DNA of 64,000 nt from Eubacteriales bacterium (GTDB lineage Bacteria; Bacillota; Clostridia; Oscillospirales; Oscillospiraceae): assembly GCA_030536515.1 (NCBI GenBank), contig JAUNPV010000004.1, positions 78,173 through 142,172 of the forward strand, read 5' to 3'. The position numbers and the translations under genes are program-made. The notes beneath the pieces are model-generated. The model did no database searches, was not told the DNA's origin, and saw only the letters and a list, made by a program, of their open reading frames with translations. This document shows, piece by piece, positions 37,014 to 63,262 of this stretch. The stretch's first letter is position 1. Each line of letters starts with the position of its first letter.

Positions 37014-37042
37014 TTGCATTATTCCACCGGCCGTGGTATAAT
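37014..37042 (+). promoter_or_regulatory. Sigma-A-type promoter of the aro operon
   Basis: TTGCAT and consensus TATAAT have a 17-bp spacer; the start should lie near 37049, about 24 bp before the leader peptide. Confidence 0.82.
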
Positions 37043-37072
37043 GTCCGCAGCTACAGGACGGAGGACAATTCC

Positions 37073-37135
37073 ATGGTCATGGTCAATGCTGCACAGTTTT
37101 ACTTTAGCTATTACTTTTTTACCGGTAAAAAGTAA
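37073..37135 (+). CDS. Aro operon leader peptide, Phe/Tyr-rich (20 aa)
   Basis: GGAGGA lies 7 bp upstream of an ATG opening 20 codons and a TAA. Residues 9-16 read FYFSYYFF, seven aromatic residues in eight codons, using both Phe and Tyr. This is the hallmark of a ribosome-mediated attenuator for Phe and Tyr, and the operon downstream makes exactly those amino acids. The last codons overlap a hairpin (CTATTACTTTTTT with AAAAAGTAATAG). The peptide itself is probably not functional. Confidence 0.85.
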   Translation: MVMVNAAQFYFSYYFFTGKK

Positions 37136-37141
37136 TAGAGA

Positions 37142-37218
37142 TTTGTGCTGCAACCCTTTTCCTGCTGCAAAACCGTATTTTCGCCGCCGCACGAATTTCT
37201 CGTGCGGCGGTATTTTTT
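37142..37218 (+). promoter_or_regulatory. Attenuator: antiterminator and rho-independent terminator before aroF
   Basis: The terminator pairs CCGCCGCACGA (37184-37194) with TCGTGCGGCGG (37200-37210), then TATTTTTT. An alternative pairing matches TTTGTGCTGC (37142-37151) to GCCGCACGAA (37186-37195), 9 of 10 with one wobble, which would break the terminator. A ribosome at the leader stop codon would cover the first strand, favouring termination. A ribosome stalled on the Phe/Tyr codons would leave it free. Confidence 0.8.
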
Positions 37219-37232
37219 AGGAGATGACAGTT

Positions 37233-38234
37233 ATGATTGCAATTTTAAAGCACGACGCAACCCCCAGCCAGGTGGAGCATCTGGTGAGCTGGCTGAAAAA
37301 TATGAATCTGGACGTCCACATTTCCCAGGGCGCCGAGGTCACGGTCCTGGGTCTGGTGGGCGACACCAGCCGGGTGGACATGGACCTGCTGAAAAGCCTG
37401 GACATGGTGGATTCCGTCAAGCGGGTGAGCGAGCCCTTCAAGCAGGCCAACCGGAAGTTCCACCCCCTGGACACCGTGGTGGAGGTAGGCGGCGTAAAAA
37501 TCGGCGGCGGCCATTTCGCCATGATTGCCGGTCCCTGCTCCGTAGAATCCGAGGACCAGATTATTGAGGTGGCCCAGGCCGTCAAGGCCTCCGGGGCCAA
37601 CATTCTCCGGGGCGGCGCCTTCAAGCCCCGGACCTCTCCCTACGCCTTCCAGGGCATGAAGGGCGAAGGCATTCAGCTGCTGATGAAGGCCCGGGAGGCC
37701 ACGGGCCTGCCCATCGTCACGGAGATTATGAACATCTCCACTCTGGACCTGTTTGCGGACGTGGACATCATCCAGGTGGGCGCCCGGAATATGCAGAATT
37801 TTGACCTGCTGAAGGAGCTGGGCAAGACAAACAAGCCCATTTTGCTGAAGCGGGGCCTGGCCAACACCATCCAGGAGCTGCTGATGAGCGCCGAGTACAT
37901 TATGAGCGAGGGCAACGACCGGGTGATTCTCTGCGAGCGGGGCATCCGCACCTTTGAGACCGCCACCCGGAACACCCTGGACCTGTCCGCCGTGACGGTG
38001 CTGCACAATCTGACCCACCTGCCCGTGGTGGTGGACCCCAGCCACGCCACCGGCAAGGCCAACCTGGTGGCCCCCATGGCCTACGCCGCCGCTGCCTGCG
38101 GGGCCGACGGCATTATGATTGAGGTCCACAACAACCCCTCCTGCGCCCTGTGCGACGGCGCGCAGTCCCTGACCCCCGTCCAGTTTGACGCACTGAACAA
38201 AAAGGTGCAGAAAATCCGCGAGGCCATCCTATGA
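37233..38234 (+). CDS. aroF: 3-deoxy-7-phosphoheptulonate (DAHP) synthase
   Basis: This is the first shikimate-pathway enzyme, joining erythrose-4-phosphate and PEP. The 333-residue protein is type I-beta: an N-terminal ferredoxin-like domain (about 1-65), used for Tyr/Phe feedback in the Thermotoga enzyme, precedes the TIM barrel with GPCSVES, RGGAFKPRTSPYAFQG, VQVGARNMQNF, LLKRG and VDPSHATG. I prefer the ATG at 37233, 9 bp from AGGAG, over the ATG at 37224 that nearly touches it. Stop overlaps tyrA (ATGA). Confidence 0.95.
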   Translation: MIAILKHDATPSQVEHLVSWLKNMNLDVHISQGAEVTVLGLVGDTSRVDMDLLKSLDMVDSVKRVSEPFKQANRKFHPLDTVVEVGGVKIGGGHFAMIAGPCSVESEDQIIEVAQAVKASGANILRGGAFKPRTSPYAFQGMKGEGIQLLMKAREATGLPIVTEIMNISTLDLFADVDIIQVGARNMQNFDLLKELGKTNKPILLKRGLANTIQELLMSAEYIMSEGNDRVILCERGIRTFETATRNTLDLSAVTVLHNLTHLPVVVDPSHATGKANLVAPMAYAAAACGADGIMIEVHNNPSCALCDGAQSLTPVQFDALNKKVQKIREAIL

Positions 38235-39061
38235 CCGTTGGAATTTTAGGGCTGGGCCTCATCGGCGGCTCCATGGCCCGGGCCTATGCCATGGCGGGCC
38301 ACACGGTGCTGGCCGCCGACACGGACGAGGCCATGCTGTCCTTCGCCATGCTGGCGGGAGCGGTCCACGGGCGGCTGGATGCGGAAGGCATTTCCAAATG
38401 CGGCCTTCTTCTGCTGGCCATCTACCCCGACGGCTCCGCCGCCTGGCTGGAGGAAAACGCCCGTTTTGTGTCCAAGGACGCTCTGGTGCTGGACTGCTGC
38501 GGCACCAAGGAAAAAATCTGCGCCCGGTGCTTCCCGGTGGCCGCGCAGTTCGGCTTCACCTTTGTGGGCGGCCACCCCATGGCCGGGTCCCAGTTTTCCG
38601 GCTTTAAGTACAGCCGGGCCACCCTGTTCCGGGGTGCGCCCATGGTGCTGGTGCCGCCGGTGTTTGACGATATTCTCCTGCTGGACCGGGTGAAGGCCGC
38701 ATTGGCCCCCTGCGAATTCGGCTCCTTCTCGGTGACCACCGCCCGGGACCACGATAAAATGATTGCCTTTACCTCCCAGATGCCCCATATTTTGAGCAAC
38801 GCCTTTATCAAATCCCCCACTGCCCTCCATCACAAGGGCTTCTCCGCCGGAAGCTACCGGGACCTGACAAGGGTCGCCTGGCTGAATCCCCAGATGTGGG
38901 CGGAATTGTTCCTGGACAACCGGGAAAATGTGCTTTTTGAGCTGGATACCTATATGAATCATCTCGCCGCCTACCGGGACGCCATTGCCCGGGGCGACGA
39001 AGCGGAGCTGACACGCCTGCTGGAAGCAGGCAAAAAGCAGAAGGAGGCGGTGGACGGATGA
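38231..39061 (+). CDS. tyrA: Prephenate dehydrogenase
   Basis: It oxidises prephenate to 4-hydroxyphenylpyruvate in the Tyr branch. The 276-residue protein starts with the NAD-binding GILGLGLIGGSMARA, carries DCCGTKEKIC and the family GHPMAGS signature, then the C-terminal helical dimer domain with FSAGSYRDLTRVA. It has no fused chorismate mutase or ACT domain, so transcriptional attenuation is the visible control. It overlaps both neighbours by 4 bp. Confidence 0.94.
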   Translation: MTVGILGLGLIGGSMARAYAMAGHTVLAADTDEAMLSFAMLAGAVHGRLDAEGISKCGLLLLAIYPDGSAAWLEENARFVSKDALVLDCCGTKEKICARCFPVAAQFGFTFVGGHPMAGSQFSGFKYSRATLFRGAPMVLVPPVFDDILLLDRVKAALAPCEFGSFSVTTARDHDKMIAFTSQMPHILSNAFIKSPTALHHKGFSAGSYRDLTRVAWLNPQMWAELFLDNRENVLFELDTYMNHLAAYRDAIARGDEAELTRLLEAGKKQKEAVDG

Positions 39062-40092
39062 CCACAGTGCCCGTAACAGCGTCCAAAAACTACAATATTG
39101 TCATCGGCCACGGGCTTCTTGGCACCATCGGCACGGAAGTGCGGAAGCTGGGGAAGGCGGAAAAAATCTGCATCGTCAGCGAAACCACCGTCTGGCCTCT
39201 GTATGGGGAGATCGTGCAGGAGAGCCTGGAGCGGGAGGGGTTTGCCGTCTGCTCTTATGTGTTCCCCGCCGGGGAGGCCTCCAAGAATGGCACCGTCTTT
39301 TTGGAGCTTCTGAATTTCCTGGCCGCCCGGCAGCTGAGCCGGTCGGATATGATTGTGGCCCTGGGCGGCGGCGTGGTGGGGGATCTGGGGGGCTTTGCCG
39401 CCGCCTGCTTCCTCCGGGGCATCCGGTTCGTCCAGGTCCCCACCACATTGCTGGCCGCTGTGGATTCCTCCGTGGGCGGCAAAACCGCCATTAACCTGCC
39501 TGCCGGGAAGAACCTGGCGGGGGCCTTCTGCCAGCCCAGCCTGGTGCTGTGCGACCTGGACACCCTGGCTTCCCTGCCGGAGGCAGTTTTCCGGGACGGC
39601 TGCGCCGAGGTCATCAAGTACGCCATGCTCTACGACCCGGCCCTCTTTGCCTATCTGGAGGAAGCGGGCCCGGGCTTTGACCGGGAGCAGGTGGTCAGCC
39701 GGTGCGTCACGCTGAAGCGGGACGTGGTCCGGGAGGACGAATTTGACACCGGGGCCAGAATGAAGCTGAATCTGGGCCACACCGTGGGCCACGCTGTGGA
39801 GGCGGAAAGCGCCTTTGCCCTGTCCCACGGCCAGGGGGTTGCCATTGGCATGGCCGTCATCTGCCGGGCCGCAAATATTCCCGACTGTGGCCGTCTGCTG
39901 GCCCTGCTGGAACGGTTCGGCCTACCCACTGACACCCGGTATCCGGCGGAAGTCCTGATTTGTCATATGCTGTCCGACAAAAAGCGCACCGGCGGCACGG
40001 TGAATCTCATCATTCCCCGGGCCATTGGGGACTGCGCCGTGGTGCCCACCCCTGTGGACCGGCTGGAATCCATCCTGGAAGCGGGGCTTTGA
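39058..40092 (+). CDS. aroB: 3-dehydroquinate synthase
   Basis: It converts DAHP to 3-dehydroquinate with NAD and a divalent metal. The 344-residue protein shows the NAD site LGGGVVGDLGGFAAACFLRG, VPTTLLAAVDSSVGGKTAIN, the metal region RDGCAEVIKY and NLGHTVGHAVE with its histidine ligands. It overlaps tyrA by 4 bp and ends one base before the aroA start codon. Confidence 0.96.
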   Translation: MTTVPVTASKNYNIVIGHGLLGTIGTEVRKLGKAEKICIVSETTVWPLYGEIVQESLEREGFAVCSYVFPAGEASKNGTVFLELLNFLAARQLSRSDMIVALGGGVVGDLGGFAAACFLRGIRFVQVPTTLLAAVDSSVGGKTAINLPAGKNLAGAFCQPSLVLCDLDTLASLPEAVFRDGCAEVIKYAMLYDPALFAYLEEAGPGFDREQVVSRCVTLKRDVVREDEFDTGARMKLNLGHTVGHAVEAESAFALSHGQGVAIGMAVICRAANIPDCGRLLALLERFGLPTDTRYPAEVLICHMLSDKKRTGGTVNLIIPRAIGDCAVVPTPVDRLESILEAGL

Positions 40093-40093
40093 T

Positions 40094-41287
40094 ATGGACA
40101 TTACCATTTACCCCAAAAAGCTGACGGGGACCGTGGCCGCCATTCCCTCCAAGTCCCAGGCCCATCGGCTGCTGATCTGCGCCGCCCTGGGCCGGGGCCG
40201 CACCACCCTCCTCTGCCCGGAGACCAACCGGGATATCGAGGCCACCGCCGGATGCCTGCAGGCGCTGGGAGCCAGAATTGTTCGGACAAGCCTGGGGTTC
40301 GAAGTGGAGCCTATCGAAACCCCCTGCAAAAATCCGGTTTTGAACTGCCATGACAGCGGCTCCACCCTCCGGTTTTTGCTGCCGGTAGCGGGAGCTCTCG
40401 GCTGTGGGGCGGTGTTTCAGCTGGAAGGGCGGCTGCCCAAGCGGCCCCTGTCCCCCCTGTGGGAGGAGCTGGAACGGATGGGCTGCCACCTGTCCCGGCC
40501 CACGGCGGACACCGTCCGCTGTGAAGGGCAGCTGCACCCCGGCGATTTCACCATCGACGGCGGCGTTTCCAGCCAGTTCATCACCGGGCTGCTGCTGGCG
40601 GCGGCCATTCTGCCGGGAAAAAGCCGGGTCATCCCCACGGGGAAGCTGGAATCCCGGCCCTACATTCAAATGACCCTGGACGCTCTGGAAGCCTTTGGGG
40701 TCCGGTCCCGGGACCTGACCCTGGAAGGGGGACTTCTGCGGTCCCCGGGGACCCTGGCGGTGGAGGGGGATTGGAGTAACGCCGCCTTTTTCCTGGCGGC
40801 CCAGGCTCTTGGCAGTCGGCTGGAGGTTACGAACCTCTCCCCTGCCTCGGCCCAGGGCGACCGGGCGGCGGCAGAGCTGATTCCCCAATTGTCCGATTTT
40901 TCCACCATTTCTGCCGCTGACATCCCGGATTTGGTGCCCATTTTGTCCATCGTGGCCGCCTGCAACAAGGGGGCGGTGTTCACCGATATCCGGCGGCTTC
41001 GGCTGAAGGAGTCCGACCGGGTGGCCTCGGTGATTGCCATGGTGGAGGCCCTGGGAGGCCGGGCGGAGGCCGATGAAAACAGCCTGACCGTCTACGGCAC
41101 CGGCCTGACCGGCGGCACCGTGGACAGCGTGGGCGACCACCGCATCGCCATGTCCGCTGCCGTTGGTGCCACGGTCTGCACGGAAAGAGTGACCATTCTG
41201 GGGGCGGAATCCGTGGGAAAGTCCTATCCCCAGTTTTGGGAGGAATACCGCCGGTTAGGAGGAAATTATGAGCAGTACCTACGGTGA
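40094..41287 (+). CDS. aroA: 3-phosphoshikimate 1-carboxyvinyltransferase (EPSP synthase)
   Basis: It transfers the enolpyruvyl group of PEP to shikimate-3-phosphate. The 397-residue protein has IPSKSQAHRLLICAAL, SGSTLRFLLPVAGAL, the GGVSSQFITGLLLAA loop, NAAFFLAAQ and RLKESDRVASV. The start is the ATG of MDITIYPKK; frames reaching further upstream run into aroB. The last 20 bp contain the ribosome site and start of aroC. Confidence 0.95.
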   Translation: MDITIYPKKLTGTVAAIPSKSQAHRLLICAALGRGRTTLLCPETNRDIEATAGCLQALGARIVRTSLGFEVEPIETPCKNPVLNCHDSGSTLRFLLPVAGALGCGAVFQLEGRLPKRPLSPLWEELERMGCHLSRPTADTVRCEGQLHPGDFTIDGGVSSQFITGLLLAAAILPGKSRVIPTGKLESRPYIQMTLDALEAFGVRSRDLTLEGGLLRSPGTLAVEGDWSNAAFFLAAQALGSRLEVTNLSPASAQGDRAAAELIPQLSDFSTISAADIPDLVPILSIVAACNKGAVFTDIRRLRLKESDRVASVIAMVEALGGRAEADENSLTVYGTGLTGGTVDSVGDHRIAMSAAVGATVCTERVTILGAESVGKSYPQFWEEYRRLGGNYEQYLR

Positions 41288-42356
41288 AAATTTGAAATTA
41301 TCCATTTTCGGCCAGTCCCACGGCCCCGCCGTGGGCATGACCCTGGACGGCATTCCGGCGGGTCTGCCTGTTGATTTTGCTGAATTGCAGGCCTTTCTCA
41401 GCCGCCGAGCCCCCGGGCAGAACGCCTGGTCCACCCCCCGGAAGGAGGCGGATGCCCCGGAGTTCTTAAGCGGACTGCTGGACGGCTTCACCTGCGGGGC
41501 CCCCATTGCGGCGGTCATCCGAAGCAGCAACACCCGGTCCGGGGACTATGCGGACCTTACTGACTGCCCCCGGCCCGGCCACGCCGACTACACCGCCCAG
41601 GTGAAATACGGCGGCTTTCAGGACCCCCGGGGCGGCGGCCATTTCTCCGGCCGGCTGACAGCTCCCCTGTGCATCGCCGGAGGTCTGTGTAAGCAGTGGC
41701 TCCGGGCGGAGGGCGTTGAAATCCACGCCCACATTTACGCCATTGCCGCCGTGAAGGACCTGCCCTTTGACGACCTGCACCCCCAGACAGAGGACATCGG
41801 GACGGACTTTCCGGTACTGGACCCTGCCGCCGGTGAAAAAATGCGGGCGGCCATTGCCGCCGCCCGGGAGCAGGGGGACAGCGTGGGGGGCATTGTGGAG
41901 TGCGCCGTCACCGGTCTGCCCGCCGGTCTGGGAGAGCCCATGTTCGGCGGCATGGAGGGGCGGCTGGCCCAAATTCTCTACGGCATTCCCGCCGTGAAGG
42001 GCGTGGAATTCGGCGCAGGCTTCGCCGCTGCGGCCATGCTGGGCAGCGAAAATAACGACGATTTTACCATGGCAGACGGCCAGGTCCGCACCTGCACCAA
42101 CCACTGCGGCGGCATTCTGGGCGGCATTTCCAACGGGATGCCCCTGATTTTCCGGGCGGCCTTCAAGCCCACCCCCTCCATCTCCCGGCCCCAGCTCTCC
42201 GTGTCCCTCAGCCGGGGAGAAAGCCGGGTGCTTGAGGTCCATGGCCGCCACGACCCCTGCATCGTGCCCCGGGCAGTGCCGGTGGCGGAGGCCGCCGCCG
42301 CAATCGCCATTTTTGATTTATTCCTTGGAAATACCCAAACAAACAGGAGGAAATAA
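41268..42356 (+). CDS. aroC: Chorismate synthase
   Basis: It makes chorismate from EPSP with reduced FMN. The 362-residue protein has SIFGQSHGPAVGMTLDGIPAG, the SRRAPGQNAWST segment, YGGFQDPRGGGHFSGR and the flavin-site GILGGISNGMPL. It starts 20 bp inside aroA after GGAGGAAATT. The shikimate order in this operon is not the pathway order. Confidence 0.96.
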   Translation: MSSTYGENLKLSIFGQSHGPAVGMTLDGIPAGLPVDFAELQAFLSRRAPGQNAWSTPRKEADAPEFLSGLLDGFTCGAPIAAVIRSSNTRSGDYADLTDCPRPGHADYTAQVKYGGFQDPRGGGHFSGRLTAPLCIAGGLCKQWLRAEGVEIHAHIYAIAAVKDLPFDDLHPQTEDIGTDFPVLDPAAGEKMRAAIAAAREQGDSVGGIVECAVTGLPAGLGEPMFGGMEGRLAQILYGIPAVKGVEFGAGFAAAAMLGSENNDDFTMADGQVRTCTNHCGGILGGISNGMPLIFRAAFKPTPSISRPQLSVSLSRGESRVLEVHGRHDPCIVPRAVPVAEAAAAIAIFDLFLGNTQTNRRK

Positions 42357-42357
42357 T

Positions 42358-43500
42358 ATGGAATTGAAGGATTTACGTGGAGAAATCGACCAAATTGACG
42401 AGGAGCTGGTCCGTCTGTTCTGCCAGCGGATGGACGTGGCCGCCCGGATTGCCGATGTGAAAAAGGAGCAGCATCTGCCCATTTTCGTCCCGGCCCGGGA
42501 GCGGGAAAAGCTCCAGGACGTGGCGAAAAAGGCCGGACCCGACATGGAAAACTACACCCGGGTGCTGTACTCCATGCTCTTTGAGCTGAGCCGCAGCTAC
42601 CAGAGCAAGCGAAACGGGGCTGTCAGCCCCCTGTACGGCGAAATCACCCGGGCCATTGAGAATACGCCCAAGCTCTTCCCCCAGGCCCCCATGGTGGCCT
42701 GCCAGGGCGTGGAGGGAGCTTATTCCCAAATTGCCTGCGAAAAAATGTTTAAAAACCCCTTTATCCTGTATTTCAAGAACTTTGAGGCGGTTTTCTCCGC
42801 CATTGACCAGGGGATGTGCCAGTACGGCATTCTGCCCATTGAAAACTCCACCGCCGGGTCTGTGAAAAAGGTCTACGATTTGATGATTCAGCACAATTTC
42901 TCCATCGTCCGCACCTTCCGCCTGAAGGTGGACCACAATCTGCTGGTCAATCCCGGCACCAAGCTCTCCGACATCCGGGAGGTCTACTCCCACGAGCAGG
43001 CCATCAGCCAGTGCCAGGACTTTTTGCAGAGCCTGCCCGGAGTCAACGTGATTCCCGTGGGCAACACCGCCATTGCGGCGGAGATGGTGGCCTCCTCGGG
43101 CCGGAAGGACGTGGCCGCCCTGTCCAGCCGGTCCTGCGCCGAGCTGTACGGCCTGAGCTGCCTGGCCGCCGCCGTCCAGGACAAGGGCAACAACCGGACC
43201 CGGTTCATCTGCATCAGCAAGAATCTGGAAATCTATCCCGGCTCCGACAAGACCAGCATTATGATGATTCTCAACCACAGGCCCGGCGCTCTGTACAAGG
43301 TGCTGGCCCGGCTTTACACCCTGGGCATCAACGTGACCAAGCTGGAATCCAGGCCCATTCCCGACCGGGAGTTTGAGTTCATGTTCTATTTCGACCTGGA
43401 AACCTCCATCTACTCCGGGGAGTTTGTGCAGCTGATGTGCGAGCTGGACGAGCTGTGCGAGGAATTTAAGTATTTGGGCAGCTACACCGAGGTGGTCTGA
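42358..43500 (+). CDS. pheA: Bifunctional chorismate mutase / prephenate dehydratase
   Basis: The 380-residue fusion makes phenylpyruvate. The N-terminal AroQ-type mutase (about 1-90) has the LRGEIDQIDEELVRLFCQRM helix. The dehydratase domain (about 110-290) carries GVEGAYSQIACEKMF and the NRTRF motif. The C-terminal ACT domain (about 300-380) has LESRP, the Phe-binding site for feedback inhibition. AGGAGGAAATAAT precedes the ATG, and the stop overlaps the next start (TGATG). Confidence 0.96.
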   Translation: MELKDLRGEIDQIDEELVRLFCQRMDVAARIADVKKEQHLPIFVPAREREKLQDVAKKAGPDMENYTRVLYSMLFELSRSYQSKRNGAVSPLYGEITRAIENTPKLFPQAPMVACQGVEGAYSQIACEKMFKNPFILYFKNFEAVFSAIDQGMCQYGILPIENSTAGSVKKVYDLMIQHNFSIVRTFRLKVDHNLLVNPGTKLSDIREVYSHEQAISQCQDFLQSLPGVNVIPVGNTAIAAEMVASSGRKDVAALSSRSCAELYGLSCLAAAVQDKGNNRTRFICISKNLEIYPGSDKTSIMMILNHRPGALYKVLARLYTLGINVTKLESRPIPDREFEFMFYFDLETSIYSGEFVQLMCELDELCEEFKYLGSYTEVV

Positions 43501-44717
43501 TGAACTGCGGACTGCTGGGCCGGGTTTTGGGCCACTCCTACTCCCCTCAGATTCACGCCATGCTGGGGGACTACCCCTATTCCCTCTTTGAAAAGGAGCC
43601 GGATGAGGTGGGGGATTTCCTGAAAAACGGGGATTTTACCGGCATTAACGTAACCATTCCTTATAAAAAGACGGTCATTCCCTTTTTGGACGAGCTGACC
43701 CCTGCGGCGGAAAAAATGGGGGCGGTGAACACCGTGGTCCGCCGCCCGGATGGGGCCCTGCTGGGCCACAACACCGATTATTTCGGCTTTGTCTCTCTGG
43801 TGCAGCACAGCGGCATTCCTGTTCAGGGCCGGAAGGCGCTGGTGCTGGGCAGCGGCGGGGCCTCCGGCACTGCCGTCCAGGCCCTCAGGGACCTGGGGGC
43901 GACTCCCATCGTGATTTCCCGGTCCGGGGAGAACAACTACGGTAACCTCTGCCGCCATGCGGACGCCTGTCTCATCGTCAACGCCACCCCCGTTGGAATG
44001 TACCCGAAAAATGGGGTTTCTCCCCTGGATTTGGCGGCTTTTCCCCATTTGGAGGGGGTGCTGGATGTGATTTACAACCCGGCCAAAACCCGGCTGCTGC
44101 TGGATGCCGAGGCGCTGGGAATCCCCGGCGAGAACGGGCTGTGGATGCTGGTGGCCCAGGCCAAGGAGGCGGCGGAGTATTTCACCGGCCAGCCCATTTC
44201 CGATGCGGTCATCGCCCCCATTCACCGCAGGCTCAGCGTGCAGATGAAAAACATCGCCCTCGTTGGAATGCCCGGCTGCGGAAAGACCACCGTCGGGCGG
44301 CAGCTTGCACAACGGCTGGGGCGGAAATTTGTGGATTTAGACGATGAACTTGTGAAGGATGCCGGGTGCTCCATCCCCGATATCTTCGCCCGGGAGGGCG
44401 AGGATGGGTTCCGGGCCCGGGAAACGGCGGTTTTGGAGCGGTTTTCCAGGGAGTCCGGGCTGGTCCTCGCCACCGGCGGAGGCTGCGTCACCCAGGCGGA
44501 GAACCTGCCTCTGCTGTGGCAGAACAGCACTGTGTGCTGGCTCCAACGGGATACCGCCGCCCTGGCCACCGACGGCCGGCCCCTTTCCCAGGGGGGGAAG
44601 CTGGAAGAAATGTACCGCATCCGCCGTCCGCTCTATGAAAAAGCCGCCGATTTAACCGTTCAAAGTGACGAAAACGCCGCAGAAGCCATTGCGGCCCGTT
44701 TGGAGGAAACATTATGA
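43500..44717 (+). CDS. aroE-aroK: Shikimate dehydrogenase-shikimate kinase fusion
   Basis: One 405-residue frame joins two pathway enzymes. The AroE part (about 1-247) has LGHSYSPQIHAML, GINVTIPYKK with the catalytic Lys, NTDYFGF with the catalytic Asp, and the LGSGGASGTAVQAL NADP loop. The AroK part (about 250-405) begins at ALVGMPGCGKTTVGRQLA (Walker A), then FVDLDDEL, GGGCVT and RPLSQGGK. No stop or ribosome site lies at the joint. It probably carries out steps four and five. Confidence 0.93.
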   Translation: MNCGLLGRVLGHSYSPQIHAMLGDYPYSLFEKEPDEVGDFLKNGDFTGINVTIPYKKTVIPFLDELTPAAEKMGAVNTVVRRPDGALLGHNTDYFGFVSLVQHSGIPVQGRKALVLGSGGASGTAVQALRDLGATPIVISRSGENNYGNLCRHADACLIVNATPVGMYPKNGVSPLDLAAFPHLEGVLDVIYNPAKTRLLLDAEALGIPGENGLWMLVAQAKEAAEYFTGQPISDAVIAPIHRRLSVQMKNIALVGMPGCGKTTVGRQLAQRLGRKFVDLDDELVKDAGCSIPDIFAREGEDGFRARETAVLERFSRESGLVLATGGGCVTQAENLPLLWQNSTVCWLQRDTAALATDGRPLSQGGKLEEMYRIRRPLYEKAADLTVQSDENAAEAIAARLEETL

Positions 44718-45145
44718 AAATTCTGGTGCTGAACGGCCCCAACCTCAATATGCTGGGCATTCGGGAGCCGGGAATTTACGGAAAAAGCACCTTCGCCGAC
44801 CTGCTGCGCCTGCTGGAGGACACCGCCCGGGCCGAAGGCCTGGACATCGAGCAGTACCAGTCCAACCACGAGGGGGACCTGGTGGATAAGATTCAGTGGG
44901 CCTACGGACGGGTGGACGGCATCGTCATCAACCCGGCGGCCTACACCCACACGTCGGTGGCCATTCTGGATGCCCTGAAGGCGGTGTCCATCCCGGCGGT
45001 GGAGGTCCACATCTCCGACGTGGACGCCCGGGAGCCCTTCCGCCAGGTGTCCTACGCTGGAAGGGCCTGTGTCAAGACCATCAAGGGCCAGGGGCTGGAG
45101 GGGTACCGGCAGGCGATTTTGTACTTAAAGGAGCGGCTGGCATGA
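44714..45145 (+). CDS. aroQ: 3-dehydroquinate dehydratase, type II
   Basis: It dehydrates 3-dehydroquinate. The 143-residue protein has LNGPNLNMLGIREPGIYG with the active-site Tyr, YQSNHEGDLVDKIQ, VINPAAYTHTSVAI, EVHISD and the final GRACVKTIKGQGLEGY. It overlaps the fusion gene by 4 bp. It completes the set of seven shikimate steps in this operon. Confidence 0.96.
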   Translation: MKILVLNGPNLNMLGIREPGIYGKSTFADLLRLLEDTARAEGLDIEQYQSNHEGDLVDKIQWAYGRVDGIVINPAAYTHTSVAILDALKAVSIPAVEVHISDVDAREPFRQVSYAGRACVKTIKGQGLEGYRQAILYLKERLA

Positions 45146-62954: not shown

Positions 62955-63262
62955 AAAAAAGCCCTCTGTCCCCACAGGGACAGAGGGCGTAAACTACGCG
63001 GTACCACCTCATGTTCGGCACTTACCTCACGGCAATGCCCTCGGGACGTCCAGCAACGTCTTTCGCTGTGTCGGGCGAACCCGTCCTCCCCTACTATTTG
63101 TCATTGCGAACCAGTGCTCACACTGGTGCGGCAATCCGTTCTTTCAGGGGGGCCACTCCGGGAGGTATTTGGGCGCAGCTTTCCCGCTGCCTTGCACCAA
63201 CCGGCAGCTCTCTGGCGGAAAGGGATTGCGCTTACTTGTTCCCTTCAACGTGTTATCTTTAT
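62955..63262 (-). promoter_or_regulatory. T-box leader, Tyr specifier
   Basis: On the minus strand the stem-I signature GAGAGCTGCCGGTTGGTGCAA (about 63197-63217) is followed by AAATACCTCC, where TAC (63165-63167) is the Tyr specifier. The T-box GAGGTGGTACCGCGTAG lies at 62994-63010, and the terminator GCCCTCTGTCC/GGACAGAGGGC plus TTTTTT at 62955-62988. A TGTCATTGCGAA half element lies between the specifier and the T-box. Confidence 0.92.
63099..63147. repeat. TGTCATTGCGAA-family half element inside the Tyr T-box leader
   Basis: TGTCATTGCGAACCAGTG, a loop, CACTGGTGCGGCAATCCG, then TTCTTTC. It occupies the region between stem I and the antiterminator, where stem III and spacers normally lie. 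Confidence 0.8.

Follow-up and report, generated by a model that had tools for sequence, protein, structure and literature searches.

The DNA in front of aroF in the window (the whole 64,000-nucleotide stretch that was analysed) very probably encodes an attenuator of transcription that is operated by the ribosome, as in the classic trp and phe leaders, and that would read both charged tRNA-Phe and charged tRNA-Tyr. The sequence supports this through the anatomy of the leader, a short open reading frame (ORF) that is conserved together with its frame, an antiterminator that covaries, and the content of the operon behind it. An attenuator had been proposed at this site in an earlier note made from the letters alone, and that interpretation largely holds, supported by the conservation of the leader, its frame and the covarying antiterminator.

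Leader anatomy and the aromatic operon

The promoter, the 20-codon ORF led by a Shine-Dalgarno (SD) site, the codon hairpin, the antiterminator arm and the terminator were all read within positions 37014-37218, 5' of aroF (Table 1). Reading the sequence confirmed the promoter, the SD site, the ORF with FYFSYYFF, the hairpin over its last codons and the terminator as the earlier note had described them. The hairpin spans the codons TAT-TAC-TTT-TTT, the Lys codons and the stop codon of the leader ORF, and a linker separates segment 2 from the terminator. The antiterminator had been placed at 37142-37151 with 37186-37195; its location was right, but its extent was not, as the actual pairing is longer, joining 37138-37151 to 37186-37199 and reaching into the terminator loop.

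The leader RNA gave a folding z-score of -6.3, with none of 200 shuffles equally good. The leader ORF was also the sole start with at least six phenylalanine or tyrosine (F/Y) codons in nine among the 443 SD-led start codons of the window, counted as ORFs of 10-45 codons (211 on the + strand and 232 on the - strand, nested starts counted separately). The same density was reached by 0 of 2666 SD-led starts in ten 64-kb first-order Markov sequences, read on one strand. The amino-acid leader families of Rfam (Phe_leader and others) gave no match in the window at gathering scores, and no match at E-values up to 5 in six loci, one of which (L003) contains the studied leader. A second copy of the leader was found in this genome neither by DNA search, in which the other match was the hairpin read on the reverse strand, nor by a covariance model under strict filters.

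Eight genes follow the leader in the order aroF-tyrA-aroB-aroA-aroC-pheA-aroEK-aroQ, with small gaps or none. Together, their enzymes run the pathway that starts from phosphoenolpyruvate and erythrose 4-phosphate and ends in the branches for Phe and Tyr. This is the shikimate operon content that had been claimed, and it was borne out by protein family searches in which some matches fell under the curated cut-offs. The aroE and aroK functions are carried by a single fused gene of 405 codons. For aroF, a start at 37233 appears more likely than one at 37224: residue 4 is where the match to the full-length profile sets in, and an SD-like AGGAG lies at 37219-37223.

A search for trpE, which gave matches in 14 of 14 control genomes (above cut-off in five), did not find the gene in this genome; the lack of a detected trpE is in keeping with a leader for Phe and Tyr, not Trp. 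A search for hisG in this genome likewise found nothing. With neither trpE nor hisG found, auxotrophy for Trp and His is possible in this organism, although the assembly is 98% complete in 48 contigs.

Table 1. Coordinates, strands and supporting evidence for features of the window
Feature	Position	Strand	Evidence
Sigma-70-type promoter, TTGCAT (37014-37019), 17-nt spacer, TATAAT (37037-37042)	37014-37042	+	sequence
Shine-Dalgarno site GGAGG of the leader ORF	37060-37064	+	sequence
Leader ORF MVMVNAAQFYFSYYFFTGKK, 20 codons and TAA	37073-37135	+	sequence; conserved in the genus
Segment 1 (GCTGCACAG), predicted outer stem with segment 2 when free of ribosomes	37088-37096	+	folding
Hairpin CTATTACTTTTT..AAAAAGTAATAG	37108-37138	+	folding, comparison of relatives
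Segment 2 (GAGATTTGTGCTGC), antiterminator 5' arm	37138-37151	+	pairing covaries across loci
Segment 3 (GCCGCACGAATTTC), antiterminator 3' arm, inside the terminator 5' arm and loop	37186-37199	+	pairing covaries
Intrinsic terminator, stem 37183-37210, U-run 37213-37218	37183-37218	+	sequence, folding
aroF, DAHP synthase	37224-38234	+	NCBIfam NF006421 and TIGR01361 above cut-off
tyrA, prephenate dehydrogenase	38231-39061	+	best family matches, under curated cut-offs
aroB, 3-dehydroquinate synthase	39058-40092	+	TIGR01357 above cut-off
aroA, EPSP synthase, ATG at 40094	40094-41287	+	TIGR01356 at 271.6 bits, under its cut-off of 287.25 (search started at 40097)
aroC, chorismate synthase	41268-42356	+	TIGR00033 above cut-off
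pheA, chorismate mutase-prephenate dehydratase	42358-43500	+	NF008865, 219.3 bits against 219; mutase-domain matches under cut-off
aroE-aroK fusion, shikimate dehydrogenase and kinase	43500-44717	+	best family matches, under curated cut-offs
aroQ, type II 3-dehydroquinate dehydratase	44714-45145	+	TIGR01088 above cut-off
T-box	62980-63257	-	covariance model match

Proposed mechanism

In the proposed mechanism, a ribosome would translate the 20 codons of the peptide as RNA polymerase transcribes the leader. When Phe and Tyr are ample, the ribosome would get to the stop codon, which lies in the 3' arm of the codon hairpin, and would cover segment 2; segment 3 would then pair with segment 4 to form the terminator, and the operon would be off. 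When Phe or Tyr is short, the ribosome would instead stall on the FYF-S-YYFF codons, covering segment 1 and opening the codon hairpin, so that the freed segment 2 could pair with segment 3 as the antiterminator and polymerase would read through. If the leader were not translated, segment 1 and the codon hairpin would hold segment 2, and the operon would be off again. We infer in this way the translation of the ORF, the stalling of the ribosome, the read-through and the response to both Phe and Tyr.

Conservation of the leader reading frame

The earlier note had proposed a comparison of aroF leaders among relatives, and had named an unconserved ORF and frame-breaking drift as signs against an attenuator. 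The comparison found the F/Y-rich short ORFs conserved and the antiterminator covarying, and neither of the two contrary signs was seen. A DNA search matched 86 of the 101 genomes of the genus, and 81 of these 86 aroF loci carried an SD-led F/Y-rich ORF (own genome included in both counts), with 18-22 codons and 7-9 F/Y in nine codons. The best match to GGAGG in the 81 leaders was 5/5 in 65, 4/5 in 15 and 3/5 in one. As for the exceptions, L073 and L085 stop at contig ends, while L096, L097 and L098 were without the ORF; at L098 the match to the protein sets in no earlier than residue 71, which makes its upstream region uncertain. At L096 and L097 the leader ORF is apparently absent, yet by eye the promoter and terminator before aroF seem kept.

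Named genome contigs were searched with a pattern of the hairpin and segment 2, which matched at least 119 stretches. In all 80 of those that were examined, an SD-preceded start opened an ORF with 5-9 F/Y in nine codons, a count to which the pattern alone supplies three F/Y codons in one frame. The gene behind these 80 loci was aroF in 68 cases, tyrA in two and a TrpX-like ABC transporter protein in nine, while L153 hits a contig end; the identity was tested for L162 (tyrA) and L115 (TrpX-like), and the other TrpX-like genes were named from translations, with only the start available at L107. One of the pattern loci, L109, comes from a cultured relative, [Clostridium] viride DSM 6836. At L125, on a contig of Candidatus Faecousia faecavium, the leader peptide was identical to that of the genus locus L016, which makes Faecousia (Oscillospiraceae) the probable identity of the genus.

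Removing 41 loci with identical leaders from a total of 161 left 120 non-identical leaders. Among them, start codon and hairpin were separated by seven different distances, from 29 to 50 nt, all of them 2 modulo 3, and the hairpin kept the frame in 120 of 120. In the six codons that lead up to the hairpin, F/Y codons made up 445 of 720 (62%) in the ORF frame, as against 104 of 600 and 73 of 600 (12-17%) in the other frames. TTT, TTC, TAT and TAC were all in use among the F/Y codons of the 120 leaders, and 117 of the 120 peptides held at least two F plus at least two Y, with W present in five and H in 20. The hairpin length was not a multiple of three in 13 of the 120 leaders, and several of those peptides extend beyond the hairpin. 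Judged from these patterns, the leader ORF is under selection.

These figures bear on two other explanations. It could be supposed that the element acts as RNA only (or as a DNA palindrome), with a protein or small molecule binding the conserved hairpin and the F/Y codons arising as a by-product of U-rich sequence. CTATTACTTT, and AGTAATAG with TTTGTGCTGC, are indeed almost invariant across the genus and among the pattern loci of Oscillospiraceae type, where the pattern required them. However, the six codons that come before the hairpin are likewise rich in F/Y, and are so in the ORF frame only, the frame stays intact despite changed lengths, and F/Y runs persist in class relatives amid varying surrounding sequence, which leaves this explanation very improbable. 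The second supposes an arrest peptide of the tnaC or erm type, in which a specific nascent chain stalls the ribosome on a free small molecule and not on uncharged tRNA. Key residues are fixed in known arrest peptides, whereas the order and number of F/Y differ among relatives here. Although the short SD-led ORF, the hydrophobic peptide and recurring pieces such as AAQFYF and FAAxY would suit an arrest peptide, the recurring AA(Q) codons fall in segment 1, where they are able to pair with segment 2, and we give this explanation equally little credence. The attenuator reading is preferred over both.

Covariation of the antiterminator and RNA folding

Segment 2 is mostly GNNNTTTGTGCTGC across the leaders, and its partner is the 5' arm and loop of the terminator. 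Over the 120 loci, the pairing of segments 2 and 3 was -15.4 kcal/mol for own and -13.2 kcal/mol for swapped partners, with 0 of 2000 permutations as good; when one locus was kept per segment-2 type (29 types), the values were -14.8 and -11.9 (sd 0.37) kcal/mol, with 0 of 5000. Changes of base pair were followed over 100 distinct combinations. Position 2 of the antiterminator was C-G in 55, A-U in 12 and U-A in 10; position 3 was G-C in 52, A-U in 17 and G-U in 17; and position 4 was A-U in 62, G-C in nine, U-A in seven and C-G in two, the rest being rarer types or unpaired at each position. Compensating pairs were seen as GAAG/CTTC (L114), GTCG/CGAC (L107), GTAA/TTAC (L109) and GTAT/ATAC (L137). 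Three loci ran contrary to this, with an own pairing far weaker than swapped at L110 and no better than swapped at L082 and L092.

Because the permutation ignores relatedness, a second set of loci was tested, which had been found by the covariance model and not by the pattern. It held 53 loci (24 order, 26 class and three phylum), of which 52 were analysed, without L270; the set leaves out other family and order loci of the covariance model and the class loci L314, L315 and L321. The antiterminator of this set gave -15.6 kcal/mol for own and -11.8 kcal/mol for swapped partners (0 of 3000 permutations), and the F/Y codon run with its own downstream segment gave -13.3 against -10.8 when swapped (0 of 3000). 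On this comparative evidence the antiterminator covaries, and the antiterminator (2:3) and terminator (3:4) pairings are mutually exclusive. In 88 of 100 combinations, the U at position 12 of segment 2 (37149) has no pairing partner in the antiterminator, although the strands on both sides are conserved, and this mismatch may itself be selected.

The pairing of segments 1 and 2 had a predicted probability of 0.85 in free RNA, and across leaders it was -8.98 kcal/mol against -5.28 kcal/mol in composition shuffles. The covariation expected between these two segments was not seen, as 962 of 3000 permutations were as good.

The leader was further folded to 37197, with segment 4 absent, under a masked ribosome of assumed footprint that had codons 9, 10, 11, 13-16 or the stop in its A site. 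The probability of the 2:3 pairing was 0 without a ribosome and 0 with the ribosome at the stop. It rose to 0.64-0.69 at codons 9-10 and was 0.56 at codon 14, but reached only 0.27 at codon 11 and 0.17 at codon 13, and was 0 at codons 15 and 16. Whenever segment 4 was included, the terminator prevailed at equilibrium in all the states folded. The switch is thus not visible when the full leader is folded to equilibrium, and it must be kinetic and decided by timing. Timing is taken to decide in attenuators of the trp/phe kind.

Distribution across Clostridia and target genes

A covariance model (R1) was built from 54 sequences and used on taxonomic draws of genomes, each of which includes the own genome and some nearer kin. 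It matched 126 of 300 genomes (55 of 106 genera) for the family, 56 of 394 (37 of 168 genera) for the order, 40 of 391 (26 of 223 genera) for the class and four of 299 genomes for the phylum. Among the matches listed, 71 family and order loci were examined, 51 stronger and 20 weaker. The stronger ones lie before aroF in 49 cases and before a TrpX-like protein, named from translation, in two (L244 and L264). The weaker ones lie before aroF in 16 cases and before a TrpB-like enzyme at L286 and L291 (L286 was tested); L282 looks degenerate, with a tyrS-like sequence further on, and L293 looks like a chance match. The leaders of L286 (KYWYFYF) and L291 (KYWRYFNFTFY) combine Trp with Tyr/Phe codons in front of this enzyme, and from their sequences the codon content of both seems fitted to the target gene.

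At the class level, an F/Y-rich ORF was present in all 29 loci examined, out of 43 matches listed. Aside from 26 that precede aroF, L313 precedes tyrA, L306 is followed by a weak pheA-like match and then aroB, and L321 has no operon gene behind its leader. Three phylum loci outside the class have a DAHP-synthase-like ORF downstream, as read from translation.

A separate sample consisted of 60 Clostridia aroF genes chosen by protein similarity alone. As these were the best 60 of 114 matching genomes by score, own genome excluded and not thinned by genus, the sample leans to closer DAHP synthases. An F/Y-rich SD-led ORF preceded 39 of the 60 (37 of the 39 with a terminator by rule), a T-box signature preceded two, and 19 had neither by the rules used, among which L354 and L374 are F/Y-rich by eye. 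The corresponding controls were 4 of 60 on the reverse strand and a mean of 1.6 in the Markov null; under stricter limits the counts were 29 forward, 0 on the reverse strand and 0 in the Markov null. In a tile control, 36 of 970 601-nt tiles of L099-L178 satisfied the loose F/Y rule, which is a weak control, the tiles including the leaders themselves.

We consider it reasonably probable that the common aromatic pathway across Clostridia is usually, and has long been, controlled by homologous leader-peptide attenuators with a dual Phe/Tyr code, reused with adjusted codons before tyrA, TrpX-like transporters and, with Trp-codon leaders, a TrpB-like enzyme. One RNA architecture would then make up an aromatic regulon beside the T-boxes of the synthetases.

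T-boxes in the same genome

The earlier note had expected translation-coupled attenuation for synthesis and T-boxes for the cognate synthetases. This agrees with the genes seen: of ten T-box matches in this genome, three of them above the gathering score, six lie directly 5' of synthetase genes (valS, metG, ileS, alaS, thrS and cysS). In the case of tyrS, an ORF intervenes between T-box and gene. The T-box of the window, which also holds the F/Y leader, precedes an M28-peptidase-like ORF (to 61981) that overlaps the next gene, tyrS (61984-60752), and from this layout a single T-box apparently controls both the peptidase-like gene and tyrS. At L038, on contig 27 of this genome, a TrpX-like transporter gene lies behind a T-box; in other genera a TrpX-like gene lies behind an F/Y leader.

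The use of T-boxes by this genome might suggest that one of them senses tRNA directly at the aroF leader. The T-box covariance model gave no match there, though it found one in the same window ahead of the ORF and tyrS, and such a T-box is hardly conceivable, being the least probable of the alternatives considered. By the preferred reading, that of an attenuator, many Clostridia appear to use leader-peptide attenuation to govern the step with which aromatic biosynthesis begins, whereas the T-boxes of the single genome studied for them mostly precede genes of synthetases. The compact element, with its covarying antiterminator, offers a sensor of two amino acids that can be tested directly, and a marker by which the regulon can be traced in uncultured bacteria of the gut.

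Comparison with known systems

In textbook accounts, control by leader-peptide attenuation belongs to Proteobacteria and control by T-boxes to Firmicutes. The pheL and trp leaders of E. coli share with the studied leader a peptide of cognate codons and a mutually exclusive antiterminator and terminator; pheL is known to read Phe only, unlike the Phe/Tyr leader described here.

The earlier note had set Firmicutes apart as relying mostly on T-boxes or TRAP. This contrast was too strong, because ribosome-mediated attenuators are reported in Firmicutes in three papers (PMC9413887, PMC6123439, PMC8632094). Candidate his attenuators are described there for the B. cereus group, Eubacteriales and Erysipelotrichales (PMC9413887), and branched-chain (ilv) attenuators for S. 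aureus and L. monocytogenes (PMC6123439). They belong to the same mechanism class as the studied leader and serve other amino acids.

In the literature covered on attenuators of Firmicutes and Clostridia, from which subscription journals are mostly absent, no report of the studied element was found. As far as these searches go, the RNA family, the dual Phe/Tyr code and the spread in Clostridia are new, while the kind of mechanism is already known. One of the nearest descriptions is that of the uORFC-13-1 motif, in which a uORF containing one or more Phe codons is followed by a terminator and aroF, and for which attenuation was suggested; it has 24 representatives, from Acholeplasma and environmental sequences only (PMC8632094). 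Compared by description only, it resembles the studied leader in its Phe-codon uORF, its terminator and its aroF gene.

For Actinobacteria, a 2005 study did not see a conserved RNA element upstream of operons for Phe or Tyr (PMC1262725). A putative leader peptide with Phe-Tyr-Phe has been described at aroF (DAHP synthase) of Corynebacterium glutamicum (PMC4046766), and aroR is reported to attenuate this gene with Phe (PMC11525245, which cites Neshat et al. 2014). On these accounts, the C. glutamicum leader and the studied one both place a peptide with Phe/Tyr codons at aroF. The C. glutamicum leader is actinobacterial, whereas the leader described here has more F/Y codons and stands before a whole aromatic operon.
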